DNA from: Euzebya pacifica
GTDB taxonomy: Bacteria; Actinomycetota; Nitriliruptoria; Euzebyales; Euzebyaceae
Direction: 5' to 3'
DNA: 64,000 nucleotides
Assembly (NCBI RefSeq): GCF_003344865.1
Contig: NZ_CP031165.1
Span: 1,679,910 to 1,743,909 of the forward strand
Part shown: one piece after another, positions 1,972 to 57,454 of the stretch
How positions within the stretch are numbered: the first letter of the stretch is position 1
Layout of the letters: every line of letters begins with the position of its first letter
The notes under the pieces: model-generated
Seen by the model: the letters and a program-made list of their open reading frames with translations, nothing else
Databases searched by the model: none
What the model was told of the DNA's origin: nothing
Program-made: the position numbers and the translations under genes

Positions 1972-3054
1972 ATGATGCGGGAAGGGCAGGCCGCAAGGGC
2001 GCCGATCCGTCGGCTGCGCACCGCGGTCGTGCTGCTGCTGACCACGATCGTGGTCGGCGTCGTCGGCTACCTCGTGCTGGGTGCGCCGACCGTGGCCGAT
2101 GCGGTGTACATGGTGGCCATCACCCTGTTCACCGTCGGCTTCGGTGAGGTGTTCCCGCTGACGGAGACGGGCCGGTGGTTCACCGTCGGGTTGATCGTCG
2201 TCGGCTTCGGCTCGGCGACGTTCAGCGCGGTGTCGGCCATGGAGGTCATCGCCGACGGCCATGTGAAGGCCCTGCTGAGGAGGAACCAGATGGATCGTCG
2301 AATCGCACAGCTGCGGGGCCACGTGATCGTGTGTGGCTACGGGCGGGTGGGCCGACACCTCGTCGGTGAGCTGGCGGCGGCCGGGCACGGGTTCGTCGTG
2401 GTCGAGGCGGGCGAGGCGCGGGTCGGCGAGCTGCGGGAGGCCGAGCACCTCTACGTCGATGCCGATGCCACCGAGGAGCTGACGTTGCACGAAGCCGGGA
2501 TCGAGCGGGCAGACGCCCTGGTGGCCTGCGTGGCCGACGACGGTGACAACGTCCTGATCGTCCTCACCGCCAAGGGCCTCAACCCCGAGGTGCAGACCGT
2601 CGCCCGCGTGAAGGCCGACGAGAACGAACCGAAGCTGCGTCGGGCGGGTGCTGATCATGTCCTGGTGCCCACCGCGATCGGCGGTCGGCGGATCGCGGAG
2701 ATGTTGACCCGGCCCGCCGTGGGCGCCTACCTCGGCGAGGTCGGCGTGCACGACTTCGACTACACCGTGGCGCAGGTCACGCTGGTGGAGTCCTCCGAGC
2801 TGGTCGGCCTGACCGTCGCGGAAGCCCGACTGCGGCAGGAGCACGGCTGCTCGTTGCTGGCCCTGCAACGTCCCGGCGACCCGATGCCCGCACCCGACCC
2901 TGCACCGGGGGACCGGCTCGAGGCCGGGTCGACGCTGGTCGTCATGGGCGGGGTGGCCCATGTCGACAGGTTGCAGCGCCGCCACGGCGGCCGTGGGGTG
3001 ATGACGAAGGTGGTCAGCCGCGGCCATCGGGCAACGCCACGACGACCCCGATGA
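1972..3054 (+). CDS. Potassium channel with two transmembrane helices and an RCK (TrkA-N/TrkA-C) domain
   Basis: Ligand-gated K+ channel subunit expected to form a tetramer in the cell membrane. Residues 1-90 hold two hydrophobic helices with a pore loop reading FTVGFGE, a variant of the usual TVGYGD filter. A Rossmann RCK domain follows, starting at [15 protein letters not shown] (NAD-binding GxGxxG), then a TrkA-C-like domain near the C-terminus. The start is ATG 1972 or the adjacent ATG 1975; both fit. It is transcribed away from kynA across an 80-base gap. The C-terminal tail is basic. The filter variant conducts K+ in related two-helix channels, so K+ selectivity is likely but inferred. 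Confidence 0.88.
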
Positions 3055-3082
3055 GGCCGCCGGGCCGCCACGCCCCAACGAC

Positions 3083-3117
3083 GACGCCCGCCACGACGTG
3101 GGGTCGGGGCGGGCGTC
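3083..3117. terminator. Bidirectional hairpin terminator between convergent genes
   Basis: GACGCCCGCC pairs with GGCGGGCGTC, and an inner CGAC/GTCG pair extends the stem. It lies between the channel gene (ends 3054) and the opposing secreted-protein gene (ends 3134). There is no clear U-tract, as is common in actinobacteria. Confidence 0.65.
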
Positions 3118-3133
3118 GCGGCTTCTGGACTGT

Positions 3134-3652
3134 CTAGCTGGTCCTGAGGCTCGCGAGGGAGACGGTCAGGTCGATGTCGCCGGGGGTGGAGATGTAGTTG
3201 CGGATGTGGACCTCGAAGGTCTCGCAGTGCTTCACCTTGCCGGCGGTGGCCTGCTCGCCGTTGCCATCCAACGGGTTGAAGTTGTGGGATCCCTCCACCA
3301 GGGCCCCGTTCTTGTAGATGTCCATGTCGATGTCACCGGTGTGCTCCCAGTCGATCCGCACGCTGGGCGTCGCGGCGACGTGGTCGGGGTTGACGTCGAC
3401 CAGGATCGTGTAGACGTCGGTGGCGGCTTCCTGGAAGCCCAGCGGGTCGGGCTCGCCACCGAGGCCGAGCGGATAGGGGGACATGGCCGTCGGAGTGGGG
3501 ACGGTGTCGGTGAGACCATCGGTCTTCACGACGAAGTCCGCGGCGTCGACTTGGTCCTGGGTGCAGGGCTCGGAGACCGGAACGGGGTCTGCCCCGGCGG
3601 GGATGGCGGTCAGCAGCATGGCGACGGCGGCAAGGGACACGAGGGTGCGCAC
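3134..3652 (-). CDS. Secreted beta-sandwich protein of unknown function
   Basis: A 172-residue exported protein of unknown role. The GTG start at 3652 has AAAGG about eight bases upstream and opens a Sec signal (VRTLVSLAAVAMLL, cleavage likely after AGA). The mature part has two cysteines (SEPCTQD and KHCETFE) that could form a disulfide, and a predicted beta-rich C-terminal half (DIDMDIYKNG, HIRNYISTPGDIDLTV) resembling bacterial pre-peptidase C-terminal (PPC) domains. A similar strand pattern occurs in the divergent peptidase at 3830 (residues about 640-730). The two genes share an upstream region and may be co-expressed, but no enzymatic motif is visible. Confidence 0.7.
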   Translation of the reverse strand: MRTLVSLAAVAMLLTAIPAGADPVPVSEPCTQDQVDAADFVVKTDGLTDTVPTPTAMSPYPLGLGGEPDPLGFQEAATDVYTILVDVNPDHVAATPSVRIDWEHTGDIDMDIYKNGALVEGSHNFNPLDGNGEQATAGKVKHCETFEVHIRNYISTPGDIDLTVSLASLRTS

Positions 3653-3759
3653 GGTTGGGCCTTTCGAGATCGATCGGAGTGCCCCGGGGGTTCGCCACGG
3701 ACCGCTCGAGTTCCTGCCGAACGGAGGAAGGCATCGTTCGAGGTCCCGGCCGTAAGGAG

Positions 3760-3776
3760 ACGGACTGGGGGTCCGT
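3760..3776. promoter_or_regulatory. Perfect 6-bp dyad in a divergent promoter region
   Basis: ACGGAC and GTCCGT flank a five-base spacer in the 177-base gap between divergent genes starting at 3652 and 3830. It could be an operator; no regulator is suggested by the sequence. Confidence 0.25.
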
Positions 3777-3829
3777 ATCGCCAGGTCGTACCCTCTTCGT
3801 TTCGCCGACACCTCCAAGAAGGACAATTC

Positions 3830-6800
3830 GTGCCCCTGACTCGCCCCTCCTTGTTCGTGCTGGGAGTGCTCGCGCTCTTCCTCGCCGTCCTGCAGGCCCC
3901 ACCCGCGTCGACCCAGGAGGCCGTCGCCGAACGGGGACTCGTGGACGACATCGTCACGGCAGCCCAGCTGCCGGCCGACATCCTGGCCCAGCTCCCCGCC
4001 ACCGCCGCAGAAGCGGGTTTCGCCTACGCGCCGCGCCTGGTCGAGGTCCGCGTCTCCAACGCCGAGGAGCGCTCGGCGCTGGTCAACTCCGGTCTGGACG
4101 TGACCGAACACGCCGGCGACAACTTCCTCGAGGTCGTGCTGTACGACGCCGCGCAGGAGCAGGTCATCAACGACCTGGGGCTGGACTACCACGTCGAGAC
4201 CCCCGACCTGATCGCGCAGGAGCGGGACCGCATCCTCGCCGACGCCGCGTACTTCCAGCAGACCGACGAGAGCCCGCTGCCCAGCGGTCGCACGACCTAC
4301 CGGGTCCTGGCGGACTTCGGGGCCGAGATCGACCAGCTGGCGGCCGACAACCCCGACCTCGTCAAGCGGATCTCCGTCGGCGAGTCCATCGAGGGCCGGG
4401 ACCTGACCGGGGTCGAGATCGGCGTCGGCGTCAACGAACCCGAGGACGGCCGTCCCGTCTTCCTGATGTTCGGCAACCACCACGCCCGCGAGTGGCCGTC
4501 GGCCGAGGCCCCGATGGAGTTCGCCCACGACCTCGTCGACGACTTCAACGCCGGTGACGCCCGGGCGGTCGACCTGTTGACCCGCACGCGCGTCATCATC
4601 GTCCCCGTCTCCAACCCCGACGGCTACGAGATCTCCCGCACCCAGGGTGACCTGATCGACCTCAACGGCCTGGACGAGGGCGGCACCGTGTCGCTGCTGG
4701 CCACCCCCGGTGGCGCGTACAAGCGCAAGAACTGCCGCCTCGTCGACGGGCAGACCCAGCCCCCGGGCCCCTGTGCGCTGGCGTTCTCACCCGGTGGATT
4801 CGGCCTCGGCGTGGACCTCAACCGCAACTACGGCGCCCTCTGGGGCGGTCCGGGTGCTGCCGGCTTCATGCCCGACGCCAACGAGGTCGAGGTTGGCCTC
4901 GCCGACCCGACCTACCACGGCCCGGCCCCGTTCTCCGAGCCCGAGACCCAAGCGATCCGCACGCTGATCTCCACCCGGCAGGTCACCACGCTGATCTCCA
5001 ACCACACCTACTCCAACCTCCTGCTGCGCCCCGTCGGCGTGAACCCCTCGACCATGCACCCCGACGGGTTCCCGGTCGGGTTCGCCCCCGACGAGTGCTT
5101 CGTCCAGGAGGACGGGCTGGACAACGGCATGCAGGCGCTGGGTGAGCGCATGACCGCCCAGACCGGCTACTCCAACCAGTTCGGCTGGGAGCTCTACGAC
5201 ACCACCGGCACCACCGAGGACTACAGCTACAACGCCACCGGCGGCTACGGCTACACCTTCGAGATCGGTCCCAACCAGTTCCACCCGCCGTACGAGGAGT
5301 ACATCGCGGAGTACACCGGCAGCGCCGACGCGGCACAGGCCGTGACGCTGGACAACATGTCGGACCTCACGACCGCGGTCGGTCGCAGCTGTGGCGACAA
5401 CGTGGCTGCCGAGTCCGTCGGTGGCGGCCTGCGCGAGGCCTACTGGCTGGCGCTGGAGAACGCCGCGGACACCAGCACCCACTCGGTGCTGGAGGGCACC
5501 GCCCCCGAGGGCGCCGAGATCGGCGTCACCCGGACCGGCACCTTCCCGCTGTGGGACGGCACCCCGTTCGAGGACACCGTGACCACCACGATGACCGTCG
5601 AGGAGTCCGGTGCGTTCACCTATCACGTCAACCCCTCGACCCGTCCCTTCGTTGACGCACGTGCCTACCTGCCCGAGGGCGAGGTCGTCGAGCCGGAGGT
5701 GACCGTCCTCAGCGAGGAGCAGCGGACCGGCAACACGGCCGGCCCGGCCGTGGGCAGCGAGGACGTGCCGATCGAGGTGCCCGAGGGCGCAGACGCGCTG
5801 ATCGTGCACGTGACCGCCGACGCCCCCAACGACTACGACATCCAGCTGTTCGACCCGCAGCTCGTGGAGGTCGACTCCTCCGCCAACCAGGACACCGACG
5901 AAACGGTGGAGGCCATCAGCCCGTCGGGGATCCAGGCCGGCGAGTGGGTCGTCCGCATCAACAACTACCTGGCTGCCGGTGACTGGACGATGGACATCAC
6001 CATCGGCACGGTGCCGGAGGTCGACAGCAGCGAGGACGAGCTGCTGTTCACCCCGCGGACCGAGGAGCTGTGGACCGTCACCTGCGCCATCGACGGCGAG
6101 GTCGTGGCCACCGGCGATGTCGCGGTGGCCCGTGGCGAGTCCGCCGACCTCGGCGACTTCTGCGAGGCCGGCGTCGGCACGAACGTCACCCGACTGTCGG
6201 GCGACAGCCGCGTCACCACGGCCATCGACGTGTCCCAGGACCGGTTCCCCGAGGACGACTCGGCCGGTGCCGTCGTGCTGGCCCGTGGCGACGAGCCCTC
6301 CGGCTTCGCCGACGCGCTTGCCGGTGGCCCCCTGGCCGTCGAGACCAACGCCCCGCTGCTGATCACCAACCCCGACAGCCTGCTCGACATCGTCGCCGAG
6401 GAGATCGACCGCGTGCTGCCCGACGGTGCGACGGTGTACCTGCTGGGTGGCGAGGCCGCGCTGGCCCCGTCCATCGAGGAGGACCTCGACGCGGCCGGGT
6501 ACGAGACGGTCCGCATCGCCGGCGTCGGCCGGCACGAGACGGCGGTGGAGATCGCCGACCAGCTCGGCAACCCCGGCCTGGTGCTCGTCGCGACCGGCGG
6601 GACCTTCCCCGACGCCCTGGCCGCAAGCGCTGCGGCCGGCGCCAACGACGGTGCGGTGCTGCTGACCGGCAGCGGGGAGCCGCACCCGGCGACCACCGCC
6701 TACCTCGACGAGCACGACCCGGCCGAGGCCCTCGCGGTCGGTGGCCCCGCTGCGGCGGCCTACCCGGACCTGGAGTCCGTGGCCGGCCCCGACCGTCACG

Positions 6801-20177: not shown

Positions 20178-22673
20178 ATGGCAAGAACAGGTACGGCGCT
20201 GGAGGCTGGGTTGGCTGGACGCGCCGGGGCGGCGCGTGCAGACGATGCGCTCGGCTTCGCGGCCATGATGGTGGCGGAGGCGGAGGAACGCTTTCGGCTC
20301 ACCCTGGAGCATGCCCCCATCGGCATGGCGATCATCGAGCTCGATGGCCAGATCCGCGACGTGAACAGGGAGCTGTCGCGGATCCTCGGCCGAACGCCCG
20401 ACGAGCTGCGTGCCGTGCGCTACGAGGACTTCGCCCACCCCGACGACGATGCCCCGCCGATCTATCGCGAGCTCGCGCCGGGGGCGCAGGAGTTCCACCG
20501 GGCCGAGAAGCGCTACGTCCGTCCCGACGGGTCGATCGTGTGGGCCGAGCTCACCGGCATGATCGTCCGTCGTCCCGACAGCGCTCCGTTGCACATCGTC
20601 GCCCTGCTCCGAGACCTGACCGAGCGGCGGACGTGGGAACGGTCCCTGCGCGAGCAGGACCTGCGCCTTCGTGCGCTGGCGGACGGCAGCACGGACTTCT
20701 TCGTCTACCGGGTCAGCCTGGAGCCCGAGCTGTCCTACGACTACTTGAGCGAGGCCGTCGAGGCCGTGAGCGGTTACACGGTCGCTGAGCTCGAGGCCAA
20801 CCCCATGCTGATCTTCGAGCGCGTCCATCCCGAGGACCTGCCGTTGATGCGGGCACGGATGACCGAGCAACGCATGGGAGGGACGGACGTCACGTACCGC
20901 TTCAGGCATCGCGATGGCCACCAGATCTGGATCAAGGCCAGGAGCGCCCCCGTCGTGGTCGACGGACGAATCGTGGCCATGGACGGGATCGCCACCGATG
21001 TGACTGCACAGATGCAGGCACGGCAGCAGAAGGCGTGGTTCTCACGACTGGTGGCGAACTCCAGCCACGTCATCCTGGCGATCGACGGACACGGCGTGAT
21101 CCAGCAGGCCTCGCCCAGCGTCGAGACCGTCCTCGGCTGGACAACGGAGGAGACGGTCGGCGACAGCCTGTGGGCGGGGATGCACCACGAGGACATCGCC
21201 GTCAACAAGGACCATTTCGTCAACGGCCGGGTCGGTCAGGTCACACGGGTTCGCATGCGACACCGGTCGGGAGCCTGGCGATGGATGGAGGCGCAGGCCG
21301 CGTCGATGGACGAAGACGCCGAGGCCCGGGGCATCGTGGTCACCCTCCGCGACATCACCGACCAAGCCGCTGCGGAGGCAGCGCTGGCCCGGCAGGCGGT
21401 CACCGATGGCCTGACGCGGCTCCCCAACCGCACCCTGCTCCGGGACCGAATCTCGCGGGCGATCGCGCGCCGTGAGCAGAACGGCACGACCGTTGGCGTC
21501 CTGACGGTCAACCTCGACCGCTTCCACACCGTGAACATGGACCTCGGCCACGAGGCGGGAGACCGCGTGCTGATCGAGGCCGGCGCCAGGCTCACCGCGC
21601 TGGTCCCACCGAACCAGACGGTCGGGAGGTTCGCGGCCGACGAGCTCGTCGTGTGTGCCGAGGGGCCCGACGTCGACCACGTCTTCGACGTGGCAGAACG
21701 CGTTCGGTTGGCGCTTGCACGACCGTTCGTCGTCGGTGAGGACGAGATCGTCCTGTCCGGCAGCGTCGGGGTCGCCGTGGTCGAGGATGCCGGCGACACG
21801 GTCGACGACGCCCTGGCGCGGTCCGCGCTCGCGCTGCGGGAGGCGAAGGCCAACGGGGGTGACGCGGTCCACGTGTTCGGGGTCGAGCTCAGGGAACGAG
21901 CACGACGGCGACGCGAGATCGAGCGGGGCCTCAGGACGGCGCTGGAGAACCAGGAGTTCGCACTCCACTACCAGCCGATCGTCGATGTCAGGGACGGCCG
22001 GCCGGTCAGCGTCGAAGCGCTGCTCCGCTGGTTCCATCCCGAACGGGGACCGATCGGGCCCGACGATTTCGTCCCGGTCGCCGAGGACATCGGGTTGATC
22101 GCCGACATCGGCGACTGGGTCATCGACGAGGCCGCCTGCGGGCAGCTGGCGCGCTGGCGGCAACAGCCCGGACTGGACGACCTGACCGTGTCGATCAACG
22201 TCGCCGCCCAGCAGCTCGACGACGAGGCGTTCGCGACCCGCCTGCAACGGACCATCGACTCCCATGGGCTTCATCCGGCCGACATCGTGCTGGAGGTGAC
22301 CGAGTCTGCGGCGGTGTCGGGCGACCACCTCGCGCGGCTGGAGGACGCAGCCGAGCTTGGTGTCGGCATCGCCATCGATGACTTCGGCACGCACTACTCC
22401 TCGTTGTCCCATATCACCCGGCTGCCCGTGGACTACATCAAGATCGACCGGTCGTTCACGAGCGGGGTGACCGGCGACCGGGGGAAGCGAGCGATCATCA
22501 TGGCGGTTGCACAGCTGGCCAGGGGGCTGCGTCTCGCCACCGTGGCGGAGGGCGTGGAGACCCAGGAGCAGGCTGACGACATCGCGCTGCTCGGCATCGA
22601 TCGGGCACAGGGGTACCTCTACAGCCGTCCTGTGCCGGCGACGGAGATCGAGGAGCTCAGCCGTTCGATGTGA
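20178..22673 (+). CDS. PAS-PAS-PAS-GGDEF-EAL protein with degenerate GGDEF; probable c-di-GMP phosphodiesterase
   Basis: An 831-residue cytoplasmic sensor. GGAGG lies six bases before the ATG. Three PAS domains cover roughly residues 38-155, 165-290 and 290-410 (for example FRLTLEHAPIGMAIIELDG). The cyclase domain (TDGLTRLPNRTLLRDRI) has GRFAADEL near residue 486 where active enzymes have GGDEF, so it should not make c-di-GMP and may instead bind GTP as a regulator. The EAL domain looks complete: VEALLRW near residue 612, INVAAQQL, EVTESAAVSG, AIDDFGTHYSSL, YIKIDRSF and AEGVETQEQ. The prediction is a signal-gated phosphodiesterase. It stands alone, with no partner gene visible. Confidence 0.92.
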   Translation: MARTGTALEAGLAGRAGAARADDALGFAAMMVAEAEERFRLTLEHAPIGMAIIELDGQIRDVNRELSRILGRTPDELRAVRYEDFAHPDDDAPPIYRELAPGAQEFHRAEKRYVRPDGSIVWAELTGMIVRRPDSAPLHIVALLRDLTERRTWERSLREQDLRLRALADGSTDFFVYRVSLEPELSYDYLSEAVEAVSGYTVAELEANPMLIFERVHPEDLPLMRARMTEQRMGGTDVTYRFRHRDGHQIWIKARSAPVVVDGRIVAMDGIATDVTAQMQARQQKAWFSRLVANSSHVILAIDGHGVIQQASPSVETVLGWTTEETVGDSLWAGMHHEDIAVNKDHFVNGRVGQVTRVRMRHRSGAWRWMEAQAASMDEDAEARGIVVTLRDITDQAAAEAALARQAVTDGLTRLPNRTLLRDRISRAIARREQNGTTVGVLTVNLDRFHTVNMDLGHEAGDRVLIEAGARLTALVPPNQTVGRFAADELVVCAEGPDVDHVFDVAERVRLALARPFVVGEDEIVLSGSVGVAVVEDAGDTVDDALARSALALREAKANGGDAVHVFGVELRERARRRREIERGLRTALENQEFALHYQPIVDVRDGRPVSVEALLRWFHPERGPIGPDDFVPVAEDIGLIADIGDWVIDEAACGQLARWRQQPGLDDLTVSINVAAQQLDDEAFATRLQRTIDSHGLHPADIVLEVTESAAVSGDHLARLEDAAELGVGIAIDDFGTHYSSLSHITRLPVDYIKIDRSFTSGVTGDRGKRAIIMAVAQLARGLRLATVAEGVETQEQADDIALLGIDRAQGYLYSRPVPATEIEELSRSM

Positions 22674-22842
22674 GCCCCCCCCGGGTCATCCCAGCAGCCA
22701 GCTGGATCGACCCACCCACACCAGAAACCAACTCGGACCTGTCCAACCCGGCCTGACACGTACCGAGGCCGGATCCACTGTCACACCCACCCTGTTGAAT
22801 CGTCCTAGAGGTCAATCCAACCAGGGGCAAGGGGTGGTCGTG

Positions 22843-24339
22843 ATGGGGCAGGCAGCGGTCGTGGCGGAACCAGCGCGGGAGGGAATCGCGCGGGTCAGCG
22901 AGGAGGTGGCCGCCCACGAGGCGCGGGTCGAGCGGCTCGTCGACGAGCTGACGGGGCTGTTCTCGACCCTGTCGGCCGGTGAGGCACGCTTCGTGGCGCT
23001 CGTAGGCGAGTTCGACGAGCTGGGTGGGTGGGCCGACGGGCAGACGCGGACGTGCGCCCACTGGCTGAACTGGAAGCTCGGGATCGCGATGCCGGCGGCC
23101 CGCGAGCGGGTGCGGGTGGCTCGGGCCCTGCGCGAGCTGCCGAGGTTGGCCGGCGCGTTCGGAGAGGGACGGCTGTCGTACAGCAAGGTCCGGGCGGTCA
23201 CGCGGGTGGCGACGCAGGCGACCGAGGAGACGCTGCTCGGGTTCGCGTTGTACGCCACCGCGGCGCAGCTCGAGCGGATCTGCCGGACCTGGCGACAGGT
23301 CCGCGCCGCCAGCGAGCCGGACGCCGAGCTCCGACAGCGCGCGACACAGCGGTTCGACGTCGTCCTCACCGACGACGGGATGATGGACGTGGCTGCGTCA
23401 CTGCCGACCGATGTGGGGGTCGTGGTCGCGCAGGCGCTGACGAAGGCGTCGACGCAGCTGTTCGCCGACAGGGGACCGGAGGGGGAGGGGGAGGACCGTC
23501 GGATCGAGGCGCTGCGGGTGATCTGCGAGTCGTTCCTCGCGGGCGGATCGTCGGGGACGTCGTCCGCCGACATCTGGCAGGTCGTGGTCTCCACCAGCGC
23601 CGACGCGCTCGCAAGGGCCGCCGAGCAGGACGGACGGTGCGAGGGGGGCGGGCCGACCGACGTCGATGGGTCCGACGACGGGGACCGGACGACGGACGAC
23701 GAGGCCTTGCACGTGGCTGACCACGGGCTCGGCCAGGTCGAGGACGGACCGGTGCTGGCACGGTCGGTGCTGTCCCGGTTGGCATGCGACGCCGTCCTCG
23801 TCGGGATGGTGACGGCCCGGGACTCCGGCGACGGCACGGGTCAGCCCATCGGTATCGGCAGGCGTCGTCGGACGATCCCCGGGTGGCTCCGCAAGCTGGT
23901 CCACCAGCGTGACCCCGGCTGCCGCTTCCCGGGATGTCCCAACACCCGCTGGACCGATGCCCACCACATCATCCACTGGGCGGCCGGGGGCAGGACCGAC
24001 CTCGACAACCTGGTGCGACTCTGTCGCTTCCACCACACCAGCGTCCATCAGCTCGGGATCGGGATCGGCCGGTCGGTGGCTGACCGCTCGTGGGCCTTCA
24101 CGACGGCCGACGGCCACCCGATCGAGCCGCCACGGCTCCGCGCTGCGGACGGGGCGCTCGAGCCGGGCCGGGGCCTGGGCTCGTGGGAGGGCGACCCGGC
24201 CAGAATGGGTCCCATCGTCGACGCGCTGGTCCTCGCGTCAGCCGCCCACGACCGGTCCGGGGCCGTCCCCGACGTTTCCGCGGAAACATCCGAACCGCTC
24301 GGCCGGCAGGTCAGGGACCCGGCCGCGTGCGTCGCGTGA
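22843..24339 (+). CDS. DUF222 and HNH endonuclease protein (13E12 repeat family), intact copy
   Basis: A 498-residue protein of the actinobacterial 13E12 group. Residues about 20-320 form the DUF222 region (LVDELTGLFSTLSAGEARF, MPAARERVRVARALRELP). The C-terminal HNH nuclease motif reads CRFPGCPNTRWTDAHHIIHW then DNLVRLCRFHHTSVH. The ATG at 22843 has an AAGGGG eight bases upstream; GTG 22834 or 22840 are alternatives. Members occur in several nearly identical copies per genome and are thought to be mobile or recombination-prone, but their activity is not established. A second, broken copy lies 14.3 kb away, with a near-identical block of 918 bp. The gene is convergent with the SDR gene. Confidence 0.9.
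   Translation: MGQAAVVAEPAREGIARVSEEVAAHEARVERLVDELTGLFSTLSAGEARFVALVGEFDELGGWADGQTRTCAHWLNWKLGIAMPAARERVRVARALRELPRLAGAFGEGRLSYSKVRAVTRVATQATEETLLGFALYATAAQLERICRTWRQVRAASEPDAELRQRATQRFDVVLTDDGMMDVAASLPTDVGVVVAQALTKASTQLFADRGPEGEGEDRRIEALRVICESFLAGGSSGTSSADIWQVVVSTSADALARAAEQDGRCEGGGPTDVDGSDDGDRTTDDEALHVADHGLGQVEDGPVLARSVLSRLACDAVLVGMVTARDSGDGTGQPIGIGRRRRTIPGWLRKLVHQRDPGCRFPGCPNTRWTDAHHIIHWAAGGRTDLDNLVRLCRFHHTSVHQLGIGIGRSVADRSWAFTTADGHPIEPPRLRAADGALEPGRGLGSWEGDPARMGPIVDALVLASAAHDRSGAVPDVSAETSEPLGRQVRDPAACVA
22894..23811 (+). repeat. Near-identical 918-bp repeat, copy 1 (DUF222 region)
   Basis: Matches 37197-38114 base for base without gaps at a constant offset of 14303, with only scattered substitutions. 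Similarity falls sharply at both edges although homologous sequence continues. This suggests recent gene conversion. Confidence 0.9.
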
Positions 24340-37085: not shown

Positions 37086-37146
37086 CACCCCCAGTGTTGA
37101 ATTGCTCTTGAAGATCAATCGTTTCGACGGCGAGAGGGTGGTCGTG

Positions 37147-38620
37147 GTGGCTCAGACGGCAGCGGTGAGGGAGCCGGTGGTGGAGGGGGTGCCCCTGTCA
37201 GCGAGGAGGTGGCCGCCCACGAGGCGCGGGTCGAGCGGCTCGTCGACGAGCTGACGGGGCTGTTCTCTACCTTGTCGGCCGGTGAGGCACGCTTCGTGGC
37301 GCTCGTCGGCGAGTTCGACGAGCTGGGTGGCTGGGCGGACGGGCAGACGCGGACGTGCGCCCATTGGTTGAACTGGAAGCTTGGGATCGCGATGCCGGCG
37401 GCCCGCGAGCGGGTGCGGGTGGCCAGGGCCCTGCGCGAGCTGCCGAGGTTGGCCGGCGCGTTCGGGGAGGGACGGCTGTCGTACAGCAAGGTCCGGGCGG
37501 TCACGCGGGTGGCGACGCAGGCGACCGAGGAGACGCTGCTCGGGTTCGCGTTGTACGCCACCGCGGCGCAGCTCGAGCGGATCTGCCGGACCTGGCGACA
37601 GGTCCGCGCCGCCGGCGAGCCGGACGCCGAGCTCCGACAGCGCGCGACACAGCGGTTCGACGTCGTCCTCACCGACGACGGGATGATGGACGTGGCTGCG
37701 TCACTGCCGACCGATGTGGGGGTCGTGGTCGCGCAGGCGCTGGCGAAGGCGTCGACGCAGCTGTTCGCCGACAGGGGACCGGAGGGGGAGGGGGAGGAGC
37801 GTCGGATCGAGGCGCTGCGGGTGATCTGCGAGTCGTTCCTCGCGGGCGGATCGTCGGGGACGTCGTCCGCCGACATCTGGCAGGTCGTGGTCTCCACCAG
37901 CGCCGACGCGCTCGCACGGGCCGCCGAGCAGGACGGACGGTGCGAGGGGCGCGGGCCGTCCGAGGCCGATGGACCGGACGACGGGGACCGGACGACGGAC
38001 GACGAGGCCTTGCACGTGGCTGACCACGGCCTCGGCCAGGTCGAGGACGGGCCGGTGCTGGCACGGTCGGTGCTGTCCCGGGTGGCGTGCGACGCCGTCC
38101 TCGTCGGGATGGTGCTGGGCCGGCGCGGTGGCGGTGGCAACGACGAACCGGTCGGTATCGGCAGGCGTCGTCGAACCATTCCCGGCTGGTCCATCAGCGT
38201 GATGCGGGATGCCAGTTCCCCGGATGCGCCAACACCAAGTGGACCGACGTGCACCACATCATTCACTGGGCGGCCGGGGGGCGGACGGACCTGAATAACC
38301 TCATCCGGTTGTGCCGGTTCCACCACACGAGCGTCCACCGGTTCGGGATCGGCATCGGGCAGTCCTTGACCGATCGGTCGTGGGTCTTCGCCACGGCGGA
38401 TGGCCACGTGATCGAACCGCCCACGTTGGCCGGTTCGGCGGACACGCTCGAGCCCGGCGTCGGGCTCGGGCTGTGGGAGGGTGATCCGGCCCGGATGAGC
38501 CACATCATCGACGCGCTGGTGCTCGCGATGGCCGAGCATGGCCCGGCAGACGCGCCAGATGTTTCCGCGGAAACACCTGACGGCGGACTGACCGTCATGG
38601 GCCCAGGTTCGACGATGTAA
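37147..38620 (+). pseudogene. DUF222/HNH gene, second copy, broken by two frameshifts
   Basis: Copy of the gene at 22843. Relative to it, one base is lost before the shared GTCAGCGAG (near 37190), moving the original start (GTG 37147) out of frame, and 13 bases are lost in the segment before the HNH domain (near 38188), so the frame ends early at 38294. The HNH part continues in another frame to 38620 with CQFPGCANTKWTDVHHIIHW and CRFHHTSVH intact. A GTG at 37209 could still yield the DUF222 half alone (361 residues). Upstream sequence from about 37082 also resembles that of copy 1. Confidence 0.85.
37197..38114 (+). repeat. Near-identical 918-bp repeat, copy 2
   Basis: Gap-free match to 22894-23811. 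Downstream of 38114 the two genes remain homologous but diverge clearly, including the whole HNH region. Confidence 0.9.
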
Positions 38621-55307: not shown

Positions 55308-56081
55308 TCAGAACAGCGAGGTCTGCTCGGCGTCGTCCTCGGCCGGATCGGTGTCGACGGTGGTGACCAGGCTGGCCGGCAGGTCCTGGTCGTCCTCGGC
55401 GAGGGGTTCCAGCAGCTCGGGGGAGTTGTTGGCGACGCTGTTGACGCGGGTGGACACGCGGTAGCGCTCTACGGCGTCGTCGGGGGCGGGGGCGAGCAGC
55501 TCGCGGACGTCGCCCATGTCGGCCTGCGGGTCCAGCCACGTCTCCCACTGCTCCCGCTCCAGCACGACGGGCATGCGGTCGTGGATGGGGGAGAGGACCT
55601 CGTTGGCGGACGTCGTCAGCACCGAGCAGGTCAGCAGGCGGGTGTCGTTCTCGCGGTCACGCCAGGACGACCAGATGCCGGCGTAGACCATCGGGTTGCC
55701 GTCGGTGCGGCGGACGAACCAGGGCAGGCGGCGGCCGCGCTTGGTGCCGTCGTCGACCTTCTCCCACTCGTAGAAGCCGTCGGCGGGGAGCAGGCATCGC
55801 CGTTGCTCGACGCTCTCGGCGAACGCCTTCTTCACCGTGACCGTCTCGGACCGGGCGTTGATCATCCGTGCGCCGATGCTGCGGTCCTTGGCCCAGAAGG
55901 GGACCAGGCCCCAGCGGAACTCGGTGAGGACCATCTGGCCGTCGTAGCGCACCACCGCGGGGACGGGGTCGGTGGGGGCGACGTTGTAGCTGGGTGGCAC
56001 GTCGTCGACCTGCCGATCGTCGATCACGAAGAACTTGACCAGCCCCTCGGCCGTCGTCGTGGCCACGTACCGTCCGCACAT
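55308..56081 (-). CDS. SRAP-family protein (YedK/HMCES), abasic-site DNA-protein crosslink
   Basis: A 257-residue protein that shields abasic sites in single-stranded DNA by covalent linkage. The catalytic Cys2 is retained (MCGRYV), with SYNVAPT (Asn), LLPADGFYEWEK (Glu) and PIHDRMPVVL (His) all in place. The usual length and a short acidic C-terminal tail (DPAEDDAEQTSLF) are present. The start must be ATG 56081 because Cys2 becomes the nucleophile after Met removal. A TACGGT box six bases upstream suggests a leaderless transcript. Confidence 0.95.
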   Translation of the reverse strand: MCGRYVATTTAEGLVKFFVIDDRQVDDVPPSYNVAPTDPVPAVVRYDGQMVLTEFRWGLVPFWAKDRSIGARMINARSETVTVKKAFAESVEQRRCLLPADGFYEWEKVDDGTKRGRRLPWFVRRTDGNPMVYAGIWSSWRDRENDTRLLTCSVLTTSANEVLSPIHDRMPVVLEREQWETWLDPQADMGDVRELLAPAPDDAVERYRVSTRVNSVANNSPELLEPLAEDDQDLPASLVTTVDTDPAEDDAEQTSLF

Positions 56082-56140: not shown

Positions 56141-56566
56141 ATGGAAACGCAACGGACGTGTACCGGATGCGGGAAACGGTTGCCCGTGACGATGTTCGGA
56201 TGGCGGGATCGTCCGGCCGGCCTCCGCCGAGGACGGTGTTCGGACTGCGTGGCCGGCGTCAAGCGAACGTGGTACGAGTCGCGTCGCCGTCTTCATCGGG
56301 AGGAGAATCGGCTGGCCCGTCGGCGACGGTACGAAGTGAACTCAGCCATCATTGCGGCGGCGAAGGACGTCCCCTGCACGGACTGTGGGCAACGATTTAC
56401 CCCCGAACAGCTGGACTTCGATCACGTGTCGGGTCAGAAGTCGTTCAACATCGGTGCGTCCCGCCACCAGGTCTCGGAGTCGCGTCTTCGCGCCGAGATC
56501 GCCAAGTGCGAGGTCGTCTGTGCCGTCTGTCACAGGATTCGGACGCACGATCGGAGTGCACGATGA
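56141..56566 (+). CDS. Zinc-ribbon HNH-like endonuclease, first of a pair
   Basis: A 141-residue protein. N-terminal CTGCGKRLP and CSDC form a zinc ribbon, then a basic helical region (RRRLHREENRLARRRRY), then an HNH-type fold: CTDCGQ, LDFDHVSGQK (the HNH histidine), and CAVCHRIRTHD. Such genes are common in phages and as free-standing homing-type nucleases. The ATG at 56141 is preferred; a TTG at 56099 would extend it. Its stop overlaps the start of the paralogous next gene (ATGA). Confidence 0.75.
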   Translation: METQRTCTGCGKRLPVTMFGWRDRPAGLRRGRCSDCVAGVKRTWYESRRRLHREENRLARRRRYEVNSAIIAAAKDVPCTDCGQRFTPEQLDFDHVSGQKSFNIGASRHQVSESRLRAEIAKCEVVCAVCHRIRTHDRSAR

Positions 56567-57024
56567 AACGTTGCTCCCAGTGTGGACTGGACAAGCCGCT
56601 GGACGCGTTCCATCGGCACCGGCAGAAGCACGACGGTCGGCAGACGGTGTGCAAGGACTGCAAGCGGGCGTACAACGCGACCTACTACCGACGGAACAAG
56701 GCCCGGCACAGCGCGATGCGACGGGCAAACGCGCTGCGTCTCAGGGCAGCGATCAACGACATGATCGCCACAGCCAAGGCCAAACCATGCGCCGACTGCG
56801 GTGAGGCGTTTCCGAGGTATGCGATGGACCTCGACCACGTCCGCGGGGTCAAGGCCGGGGATGCTTCCGTCATCAGGCGGATGGGCCTCGAACGAGCACG
56901 GGCCGAGATCGCGAAATGCGAGCCCGTGTGTGCGGCCTGTCACAGGCTGCGAACACGTCATCGTGAGCGGCGACGCGGCCGACTCGAGACGGCGGGATGG
57001 AGTTGTAGGCCCCCGGGGACTTGA
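56563..57024 (+). CDS. Zinc-ribbon HNH-like endonuclease, second of a pair, overlapping tRNA-Lys
   Basis: A 153-residue paralogue of the gene before it, with the same plan: CSQCGLDKPLDAFHRH and CKDCKRAY as zinc ribbon, a basic region, CADCGEAF, MDLDHVRGVKAG (HNH histidine) and CAACHRLRTRH. It begins in the ATGA overlap. The last 19 bases lie antisense to the 3' end of tRNA-Lys (57006-57078), so its C-terminal residues WSCRPPGT are read from tRNA sequence. This suggests insertion or rearrangement at the tRNA gene. Confidence 0.75.
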   Translation: MKRCSQCGLDKPLDAFHRHRQKHDGRQTVCKDCKRAYNATYYRRNKARHSAMRRANALRLRAAINDMIATAKAKPCADCGEAFPRYAMDLDHVRGVKAGDASVIRRMGLERARAEIAKCEPVCAACHRLRTRHRERRRGRLETAGWSCRPPGT

Positions 57025-57078
57025 ACCCCGAACCTGCGGATTAAGAGTCCGATGCTCTGCCAGTTGAGCTAGAGGCCC
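57006..57078 (-). tRNA. tRNA-Lys (anticodon CUU)
   Basis: Acceptor GGGCCTC pairs with GGGGCCT (two G-U pairs), loop CTCTTAA gives anticodon CTT, T-arm CGGGG-TTCAAGT-CCCCG is perfect. CCA is not encoded. Confidence 0.93.
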
Positions 57079-57150
57079 GTGAACGGATCGAGGAGTGTAG
57101 CGTCCCGATTCCATTCGTCCCAACCGAGCGGGAACTCGGGTGGGGAGAAG

Positions 57151-57225
57151 GGTGATCGACGGGATTCGAACCCGCGGCCTCCGCGACCACAACGCGGCGC
57201 TCTAACCAACTGAGCTACGACCACC
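57151..57225 (-). tRNA. tRNA-His (anticodon GUG)
   Basis: Acceptor GTGGTCG with CGATCAC, loop TTGTGGT gives anticodon GTG, and the extra G-1 pairs with discriminator C73 as expected for histidine tRNA. Confidence 0.94.
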
Positions 57226-57327: not shown

Positions 57328-57400
57328 GCCCCAGTAGCTCAGGGGACAGAGCAGCGGGCTTCTATCCCGTCGGTCGTGGGTTCGAATCCTACCTGGGGCG
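57328..57400 (+). tRNA. tRNA-Arg (anticodon UCU)
   Basis: Acceptor GCCCCAG with CTGGGGC, loop CTTCTAT gives anticodon TCT, T-arm GTGGG-TTCGAAT-CCTAC. Reads AGA, a rare codon in this high-GC DNA. Confidence 0.93.
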
Positions 57401-57454
57401 CCAGCCGGTCAACGTCGTCGCGAGGCTGATGATGCGTCACCGCGAACCGGCCTC

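Follow-up and report, generated by a model that had tools for sequence, protein, structure and literature searches.

HNH gene pair at the tRNA-Lys locus of Euzebya pacifica

The analysed stretch of DNA, referred to below as the window, covers 64,000 nt (G000:C1:1679910-1743909) of the 6.37-Mb genome of the actinobacterium Euzebya pacifica. Between a divergently oriented SRAP gene and the tRNA-Lys(CTT) gene, it contains two zinc-ribbon–HNH genes that are coupled by an ATGA overlap. The locus is organized as follows:

55308..56081, minus strand: SRAP (HMCES/YedK-like) gene on the opposite flank of the proposed insertion site (Pfam PF02586, E 2.5e-74)
56141..56566, plus strand: HNH1, 141 aa, from the ATG to the stop codon (open reading frame; PHROG 2255 match)
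~56159-56248 and ~56375-56533, plus strand: ribbon cysteines and HNH core of HNH1
56563..56566, plus strand: ATGA start/stop overlap of 4 nt coupling HNH1 and HNH2 (from the sequence)
56563..57024, plus strand: HNH2, a paralogue of HNH1, 153 aa, from the ATG to the stop codon (open reading frame; PHROG 2255 match; AlphaFold model)
56572-56661 and 56788-56943, plus strand: ribbon and HNH core of HNH2
57005..57024, plus strand: 3' end of HNH2 overlapping the antisense of the tRNA-Lys 3' end by 20 nt (open reading frame and ARAGORN coordinates)
57005..57078, minus strand: tRNA-Lys(CTT) with the T-loop TTCAAGT, the proposed targeted and immune gene (ARAGORN; alignment with 19 relatives)
57150..57224, minus strand: tRNA-His(GTG), a conserved neighbour (ARAGORN; relatives)
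57328..57403, plus strand: tRNA-Arg(TCT), a conserved neighbour (ARAGORN; relatives)

The initial annotation had described two overlapping zinc-ribbon HNH genes running into tRNA-Lys, and this is borne out by the 4-nt overlap of the reading frames and by the position of the HNH2 stop codon, which lies 20 nt into the tRNA gene on its antisense strand. The shared domain order that it reported is likewise seen in both proteins, where a Cys4 ribbon (CxxC...CxxC) is followed by a basic helical segment and by CxxC...LDxDH...CxxCH. HNH1 and HNH2 are 37–40% identical to each other, and a search of the genome with HNH1 returned only these two matches. The G+C content of the pair is 64.6%, compared with 70.6% in the window. 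Elsewhere in the window, the open reading frames at 22471-24336 and 37101-38291 match one and the same stretch of the related genome G002 (75–77%), and PF01844 HNH motifs occur at 23956-24048 and 38222-38338; these two frames may be paralogues flanking a segment that is rearranged relative to G002.

Protein family and predicted structure

Both proteins match the PHROG family 2255 (HNH endonucleases) over their full length, including the ribbon and the HNH domain (E 3e-26 for HNH1 and 1e-29 for HNH2). The residues C76, C79, D91, H92, C123, C126 and H127 are kept in all 15 aligned family members. With Pfam PF01844 the two proteins score 14.8 and 12.2 bits, which is below the curated cut-off of 21.4 bits. 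The AlphaFold2 model of HNH2 (pLDDT 88.8) consists of the ribbon, a 42-residue helix (31–72) and an HNH fold. Fold and sequence searches of the PDB returned no match at E 0.001 or better. The first matches in a viral fold library were HNH proteins of the actinophages Finemlucis and TunaTartare, and in TunaTartare and Vetrix, the latter being the closest record to Finemlucis, the HNH genes are situated in tRNA clusters. Neither protein was matched by PADLOC.

The tRNA-Lys locus in related genomes

A search with HNH2 across 61 genomes found matches in twelve of them, including all four members of the genus, which carry the pair, six others of the order, which carry a single gene, and two of the class. 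We further compared 20 genomes of the order in which tRNA-Lys(CTT) and its neighbourhood lie on the contig. An HNH gene directly adjoins tRNA-Lys in ten of them (four pairs and six singles) and is absent from nine; in G016, the remaining genome, the gene has decayed and carries an internal deletion. In the empty state, tRNA-Lys and SRAP are adjacent, lying 4–39 nt apart in G005, G007, G009 and G029. The HNH gene thus behaves as an optional gene between conserved genes, as it also does in the phage alleles described below. In four order genomes, a permease-like gene (named by sequence) lies between SRAP and tRNA-Lys (L102 2879-4150, L094 3047-4411, L095 3728-4927 and L096 ~2791-3951), and the interval therefore accepts other genes too.

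The conserved divergent layout prompted us to consider SRAP, a protein that acts in DNA damage, as the partner of a resident pair of DNA-repair nucleases for which tRNA-Lys would simply be the next gene. Indeed, SRAP adjoins the HNH gene in eight of the ten occupied order genomes. However, the HNH gene stays at tRNA-Lys in all ten, including G010, where a permease separates it from SRAP, and G024, where no SRAP match was found. Because of these two genomes we conclude that the HNH gene follows tRNA-Lys rather than SRAP, and we rejected a SRAP partnership as the main cause.

Presence in all relatives with the same overlap had been named in the initial annotation as a sign of ancient fixed genes. 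Presence does hold in all four species of the genus, but the overlap between HNH2 and tRNA-Lys does not, measuring 20 nt in the window and 41, 6 and −1 nt in the other three species, and across the order nine of the 20 genomes lack the gene and one has it decayed. The varying overlap also bears on the suggestion that the tail of HNH2 is tRNA-derived. Since its length is not conserved, the tail is tRNA-derived only insofar as the reading frame enters the tRNA gene, and this is probably incidental.

Sequence divergence and age of the pair

Comparison of the DNA of G000 (E. pacifica) and G002, the nearest species, revealed 90–97% identity on the SRAP side and across the 200 nt at tRNA-Lys, whereas the HNH pair is only 60–73% identical; syntenic genes of G002 that match over most of their length are mainly 70–96% identical. 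Pairwise protein identities among the four species of the genus are 50–55% for HNH1 and 50–54% for HNH2, a star-like pattern unlike that of the species. Such low identity between conserved flanks reflects either allele exchange or very fast evolution. In the phylogenetic tree, which rests on few columns and has many open forks, HNH1 and HNH2 of the genus each form their own clade, and the isotype of the neighbouring tRNA changes 34 times among 80 labelled rows (a raw, uncontrolled count).

These data can also be read as an old, vertically inherited pair, selfish or domesticated, that no longer homes and whose low identity comes from rapid evolution rather than replacement. The pair, its gene order and, by coordinates, the ATGA coupling are common to all four members of the genus, the two paralogues keep to separate clades, and fast evolution could also yield the local pattern of divergence. 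On the other hand, the catalytic columns are intact in all eight copies, and the HNH genes of G000 and G002 resemble each other no more than they resemble those of the other species despite flanks of 90–97% identity. We regard this reading as rather unlikely; it concerns the present activity of the pair, not its origin, and is compatible with the reading that we prefer. The pair in the window is best read as an old occupant of tRNA-Lys; in related species the gene is retained, decayed or missing.

Association with tRNA genes across bacteria and viruses

Using a profile built from 15 family members, we collected 50 further genome loci and ten more from a search of 396 genomes across the phylum (18 genomes with matches), yielding 60 loci in total. 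A tRNA gene lies within 150 nt of the HNH gene in 46 of these 60 loci (42 of 56 when four loci that are also in the seed alignment are set aside), and 14 anticodons are represented. The tRNA is located downstream of the HNH gene in 42 loci (29 on the same strand and 13 on the opposite strand), and in 24 loci the HNH stop codon falls inside the tRNA. The sources of the family loci include Actinobacteria, Acidobacteria, Chloroflexi, Saccharibacteria, Gemmataceae, Roseithermus, an alphaproteobacterium and an archaeon. As a control, we examined 38 ordinary PF01844 HNH loci (eight from E. pacifica and 30 others) and found no tRNA within 350 nt of any of them, compared with 46 of 60 family loci by this measure. 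In a Saccharibacteria MAG (L124 4515-5321), a tandem pair of family genes lies upstream of, and overlaps, tRNA-Thr(CGT), a possible parallel to the pair in the window.

Among viruses, 494 loci encode a relative, and in the best 80 of them a tRNA was found within 150 nt in 26 cases. In all five annotated phage records examined for the family, the gene is situated in a tRNA cluster; the E. coli plasmid relative that was inspected, one of seven, has no tRNA nearby. With 54 of the best 80 viral loci and 14 of the 60 genome loci lacking a tRNA within 150 nt, the family is broader than its tRNA habit.

The same collection weighs against the repair partnership, as SRAP is present in only four of the 60 family loci, three of them from the order of Euzebya, versus 46 with a nearby tRNA; we consider that explanation highly improbable. 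It also bears on a possible origin by integrase-mediated insertion at the tRNA-Lys 3' end, with the HNH genes as the last remains of a prophage or another integrative element. The 3' ends of tRNA genes are classical integrase sites, relatives of the HNH genes occur in phages, and the G+C content of the pair differs from that of the window. However, a Pfam scan of ten neighbouring proteins found no integrase or phage gene, and we rejected an integrase-borne tRNA-integrating element as a candidate. Moreover, the HNH gene recurs as an isolated gene at 14 anticodons in many phyla, mostly in the order gene then tRNA, and in the phage alleles described in the following section the HNH unit is inserted alone. 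An integrative remnant is hence a very unlikely source of the pair.

Occupied and empty tRNA alleles

The insertion of family members into tRNA genes can be followed in pairs of occupied and empty phage alleles. In Leo04 and Sushi23, the HNH gene lies inside tRNA-Thr(TGT), for which Pepperwood provides the empty allele; in TunaTartare, it lies inside tRNA-Arg(ACG), with Faust as the empty allele; and in Bonray, it lies inside tRNA-Lys(CTT), with empty alleles in ArcherS7 and Issimir. As the Leo04 and Sushi23 insertions possibly represent one event, we count three events as independent. The inserted units are 445–701 nt long and consist of the HNH unit alone. In the four occupied phages, the 3' part of the resident tRNA gene resumes at tRNA position 50, 51 or 53, which corresponds to the start of the T-arm. 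The Bonray unit measures 596 nt by script, a figure that includes a short segment of divergent sequence lying upstream of the tRNA, and the alignment places its left edge at approximately position 29.

Each of the four occupied alleles contains a complete tRNA with the same anticodon and a different T-arm. There are two ways in which this tRNA is made up. In Leo04 and TunaTartare, the resident 5' half is fused to an incoming 3' half whose T-stem is altered, while in Bonray and Sushi23 a whole different tRNA with the same anticodon is supplied and both resident halves are left behind. In a further pair, P7 versus PBES02, the HNH gene is located at the extreme 3' end of an intact tRNA-Ser and nothing is split.

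A mirror layout was found in a virus (L178) and in an acidobacterial chromosome (L122), where a 5' tRNA half is followed by the HNH gene, a complete tRNA-Arg(CCT) or tRNA-Gln(CTG), and a 3' fragment. The outer halves of L122 show seven of seven acceptor-stem pairs, and ARAGORN recognized a tRNA at 67 of 440 junctions when they were joined (zero in the shifted control); joining the outer halves of L178 gave a tRNA at none of the junctions. A strict search for split tRNAs was positive in two of 93 loci, which is not significant on its own (shuffled-pair control mean 0.62, maximum 4) and implies that tRNA remnants are rarely detectable; one of the two, L154, is probably a chance hit. No tRNA remnant is visible beside the HNH pair in the window. 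Of 148 Smith-Waterman tests for tRNA halves, 20 scored above every one of 200 shuffles, but we prefer the allele pairs to this result because related tRNAs abound in phage tRNA clusters.

Two candidate pairs were not counted. Vetrix and BigCheese are too divergent for the insertion to be placed, and the insert distinguishing ArcherS7 from Issimir at tRNA-Thr encodes a different, ribbon-less HNH protein. This ribbon-less gene is present in Bonray (L259 3934-4308) and ArcherS7 (L265 1512-1886) as an optional 348-bp insert at the 3' end of tRNA-Thr(TGT) that is absent in Issimir; its class may share the tRNA habit.

Candidate immunity marks

The tRNA-Lys T-loop TTCGAGT occurs in eight of the nine HNH-free relatives (the exception being G015) and in none of the ten HNH-bearing ones, with G016 left out, although the corresponding p-value (Fisher, 1.2e-4) overstates the evidence because the genomes are related. 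The single difference between the P7 tRNA-Ser and its empty allele also falls within the T-loop. From the sequences, the altered T-arm or T-loop of an occupied tRNA is a possible immunity mark.

Within the Microbacterium genus, 23 of 149 genomes have a family relative. We compared the 30 loci most similar to the G295 query and found that the tRNA-Arg(TCT) anticodon-arm type TCGATCTTCTAAG is present in all five occupied loci and in three of the 25 unoccupied ones, one of which has a single base difference. The association with the HNH gene is suggestive only. The three HNH-free genomes with the altered arm, G556, G443 and G447 (L349, L351 and L363; the one-base difference is in G447), revealed no HNH remnant and are perhaps former carriers or a clade signal. 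Both the T-loop and the anticodon-arm associations could reflect clade effects.

Comparison with known systems

The closest known system is SegB of phages T4 and T6, which, like the present family, is free-standing and found beside tRNA genes of many isotypes (PMC13096335). As described in the consulted parts of that survey, which covers phage and archaeal-virus proteins, SegB of T-even phages is a GIY-YIG enzyme that is enriched beside tRNAs and cuts within tRNA genes at the motif RAWTSGAAC, the reverse complement of the T-loop (PMC13096335). SegB differs from the zinc-ribbon HNH family in its GIY-YIG domain, and those parts of the survey do not describe a replacement-tRNA architecture for it (PMC13096335). 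No GIY-YIG domain was found among the Pfam or PHROG hits of the window proteins, and the model comprises ribbon, helix and HNH.

Among the coding genes in the tRNA arrays of mycobacteria and phages, HNH genes are the most widespread, and their role in the diversity of the tRNA repertoire has been suggested with reference to Pope et al. 2014, according to excerpts of three accounts (PMC5966550, PMC6582537, PMC6409571). The same excerpts concern phages, plasmids and some mycobacteria, and describe neither insertion inside tRNA genes nor replacement halves, nor chromosomal copies that stand singly at ordinary tRNA genes in different phyla (PMC5966550, PMC6582537, PMC6409571). F-CphI of the DHHRN family, a homing endonuclease of phages, resembles the pair in being free-standing and in having a CxxC...CxxC zinc site, and its occupied allele is immune in what the consulted part of the source terms 'collaborative homing' (PMC6083498). 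By the same partial source, that family requires a DHDH centre and Cx2C followed by N, and targets psbA rather than a tRNA gene (PMC6083498). Neither of those motifs was found in the window proteins, which have D-H-V (LDFDHV or LDLDHV) and CxxCH instead. For T4 endonuclease VII, a resolvase with a different motif, there is a weak and non-significant fold match to the HNH part (1e7l, E 0.8). Across a literature search judged mostly by titles and abstract openings, we found no account of an HNH gene that is inserted within a tRNA gene and brings parts of a replacement tRNA.

Synthetic cleave-and-rescue elements combine a nuclease with a recoded copy of its target gene. The likeness of the present family to them is one of logic only, the synthetic elements being engineered.

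Proposed mechanism and implications

The comparative sequence data suggest that the family, including the pair in the window, probably consists of free-standing zinc-ribbon HNH homing endonucleases that target and rescue tRNA genes. Judging by the insertion boundaries, the HNH protein would cut a tRNA gene either close to where the T-arm begins or within the anticodon arm. Repair of the break from an occupied allele would then copy the nuclease gene into the tRNA gene, as the differences between the phage alleles suggest. The unit supplies either a whole isoacceptor-matched tRNA or a tRNA half whose T-stem is changed. The cell or phage thereby retains the tRNA, and the replacement may have become resistant to cutting. 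Finally, the leftover tRNA halves would decay, leaving the HNH gene against an intact tRNA gene. The pair in the window may represent an old unit of this kind between tRNA-Lys(CTT) and SRAP, its two coupled proteins perhaps acting as two subunits for an asymmetric site.

The pattern of alleles expected from a tRNA-targeting homing HNH with a replacement tRNA is well supported by the compared sequences, while the biochemical process is a proposal. The initial view, in which a small nuclease unit arrived at a tRNA gene and is maintained by it in the manner of free-standing homing endonucleases, is partly supported, in kind, by the empty sites, the adjacency to tRNA genes across phyla and the phage insertions inside tRNA genes with a replacement part; the presence of the pair in all four members of the genus speaks on the other side. 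For the broader proposition we lean towards a natural cleave-and-rescue selfish element that spans domains, in which the HNH protein attacks the tRNA T-arm, inserts its gene and supplies an isoacceptor-matched recoded tRNA or half, with the window pair as an old example.

T4 SegB and the HNH genes of tRNA arrays had previously prompted the idea of targeting tRNA genes. If the proposed explanation is true, this HNH lineage would have overcome the chief difficulty of a homing endonuclease, that of reconciling a conserved target with host survival, because it attacks tRNA genes and brings the repair along. It would account for the scattered HNH genes at tRNA genes, for tRNAs that are split or duplicated in phage arrays and for some replacement of bacterial tRNA genes. 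In phages, in many bacterial phyla and in an archaeal record, the most universal of genes would then serve as a landing pad, and tRNA genes would be slowly rewritten in the process.
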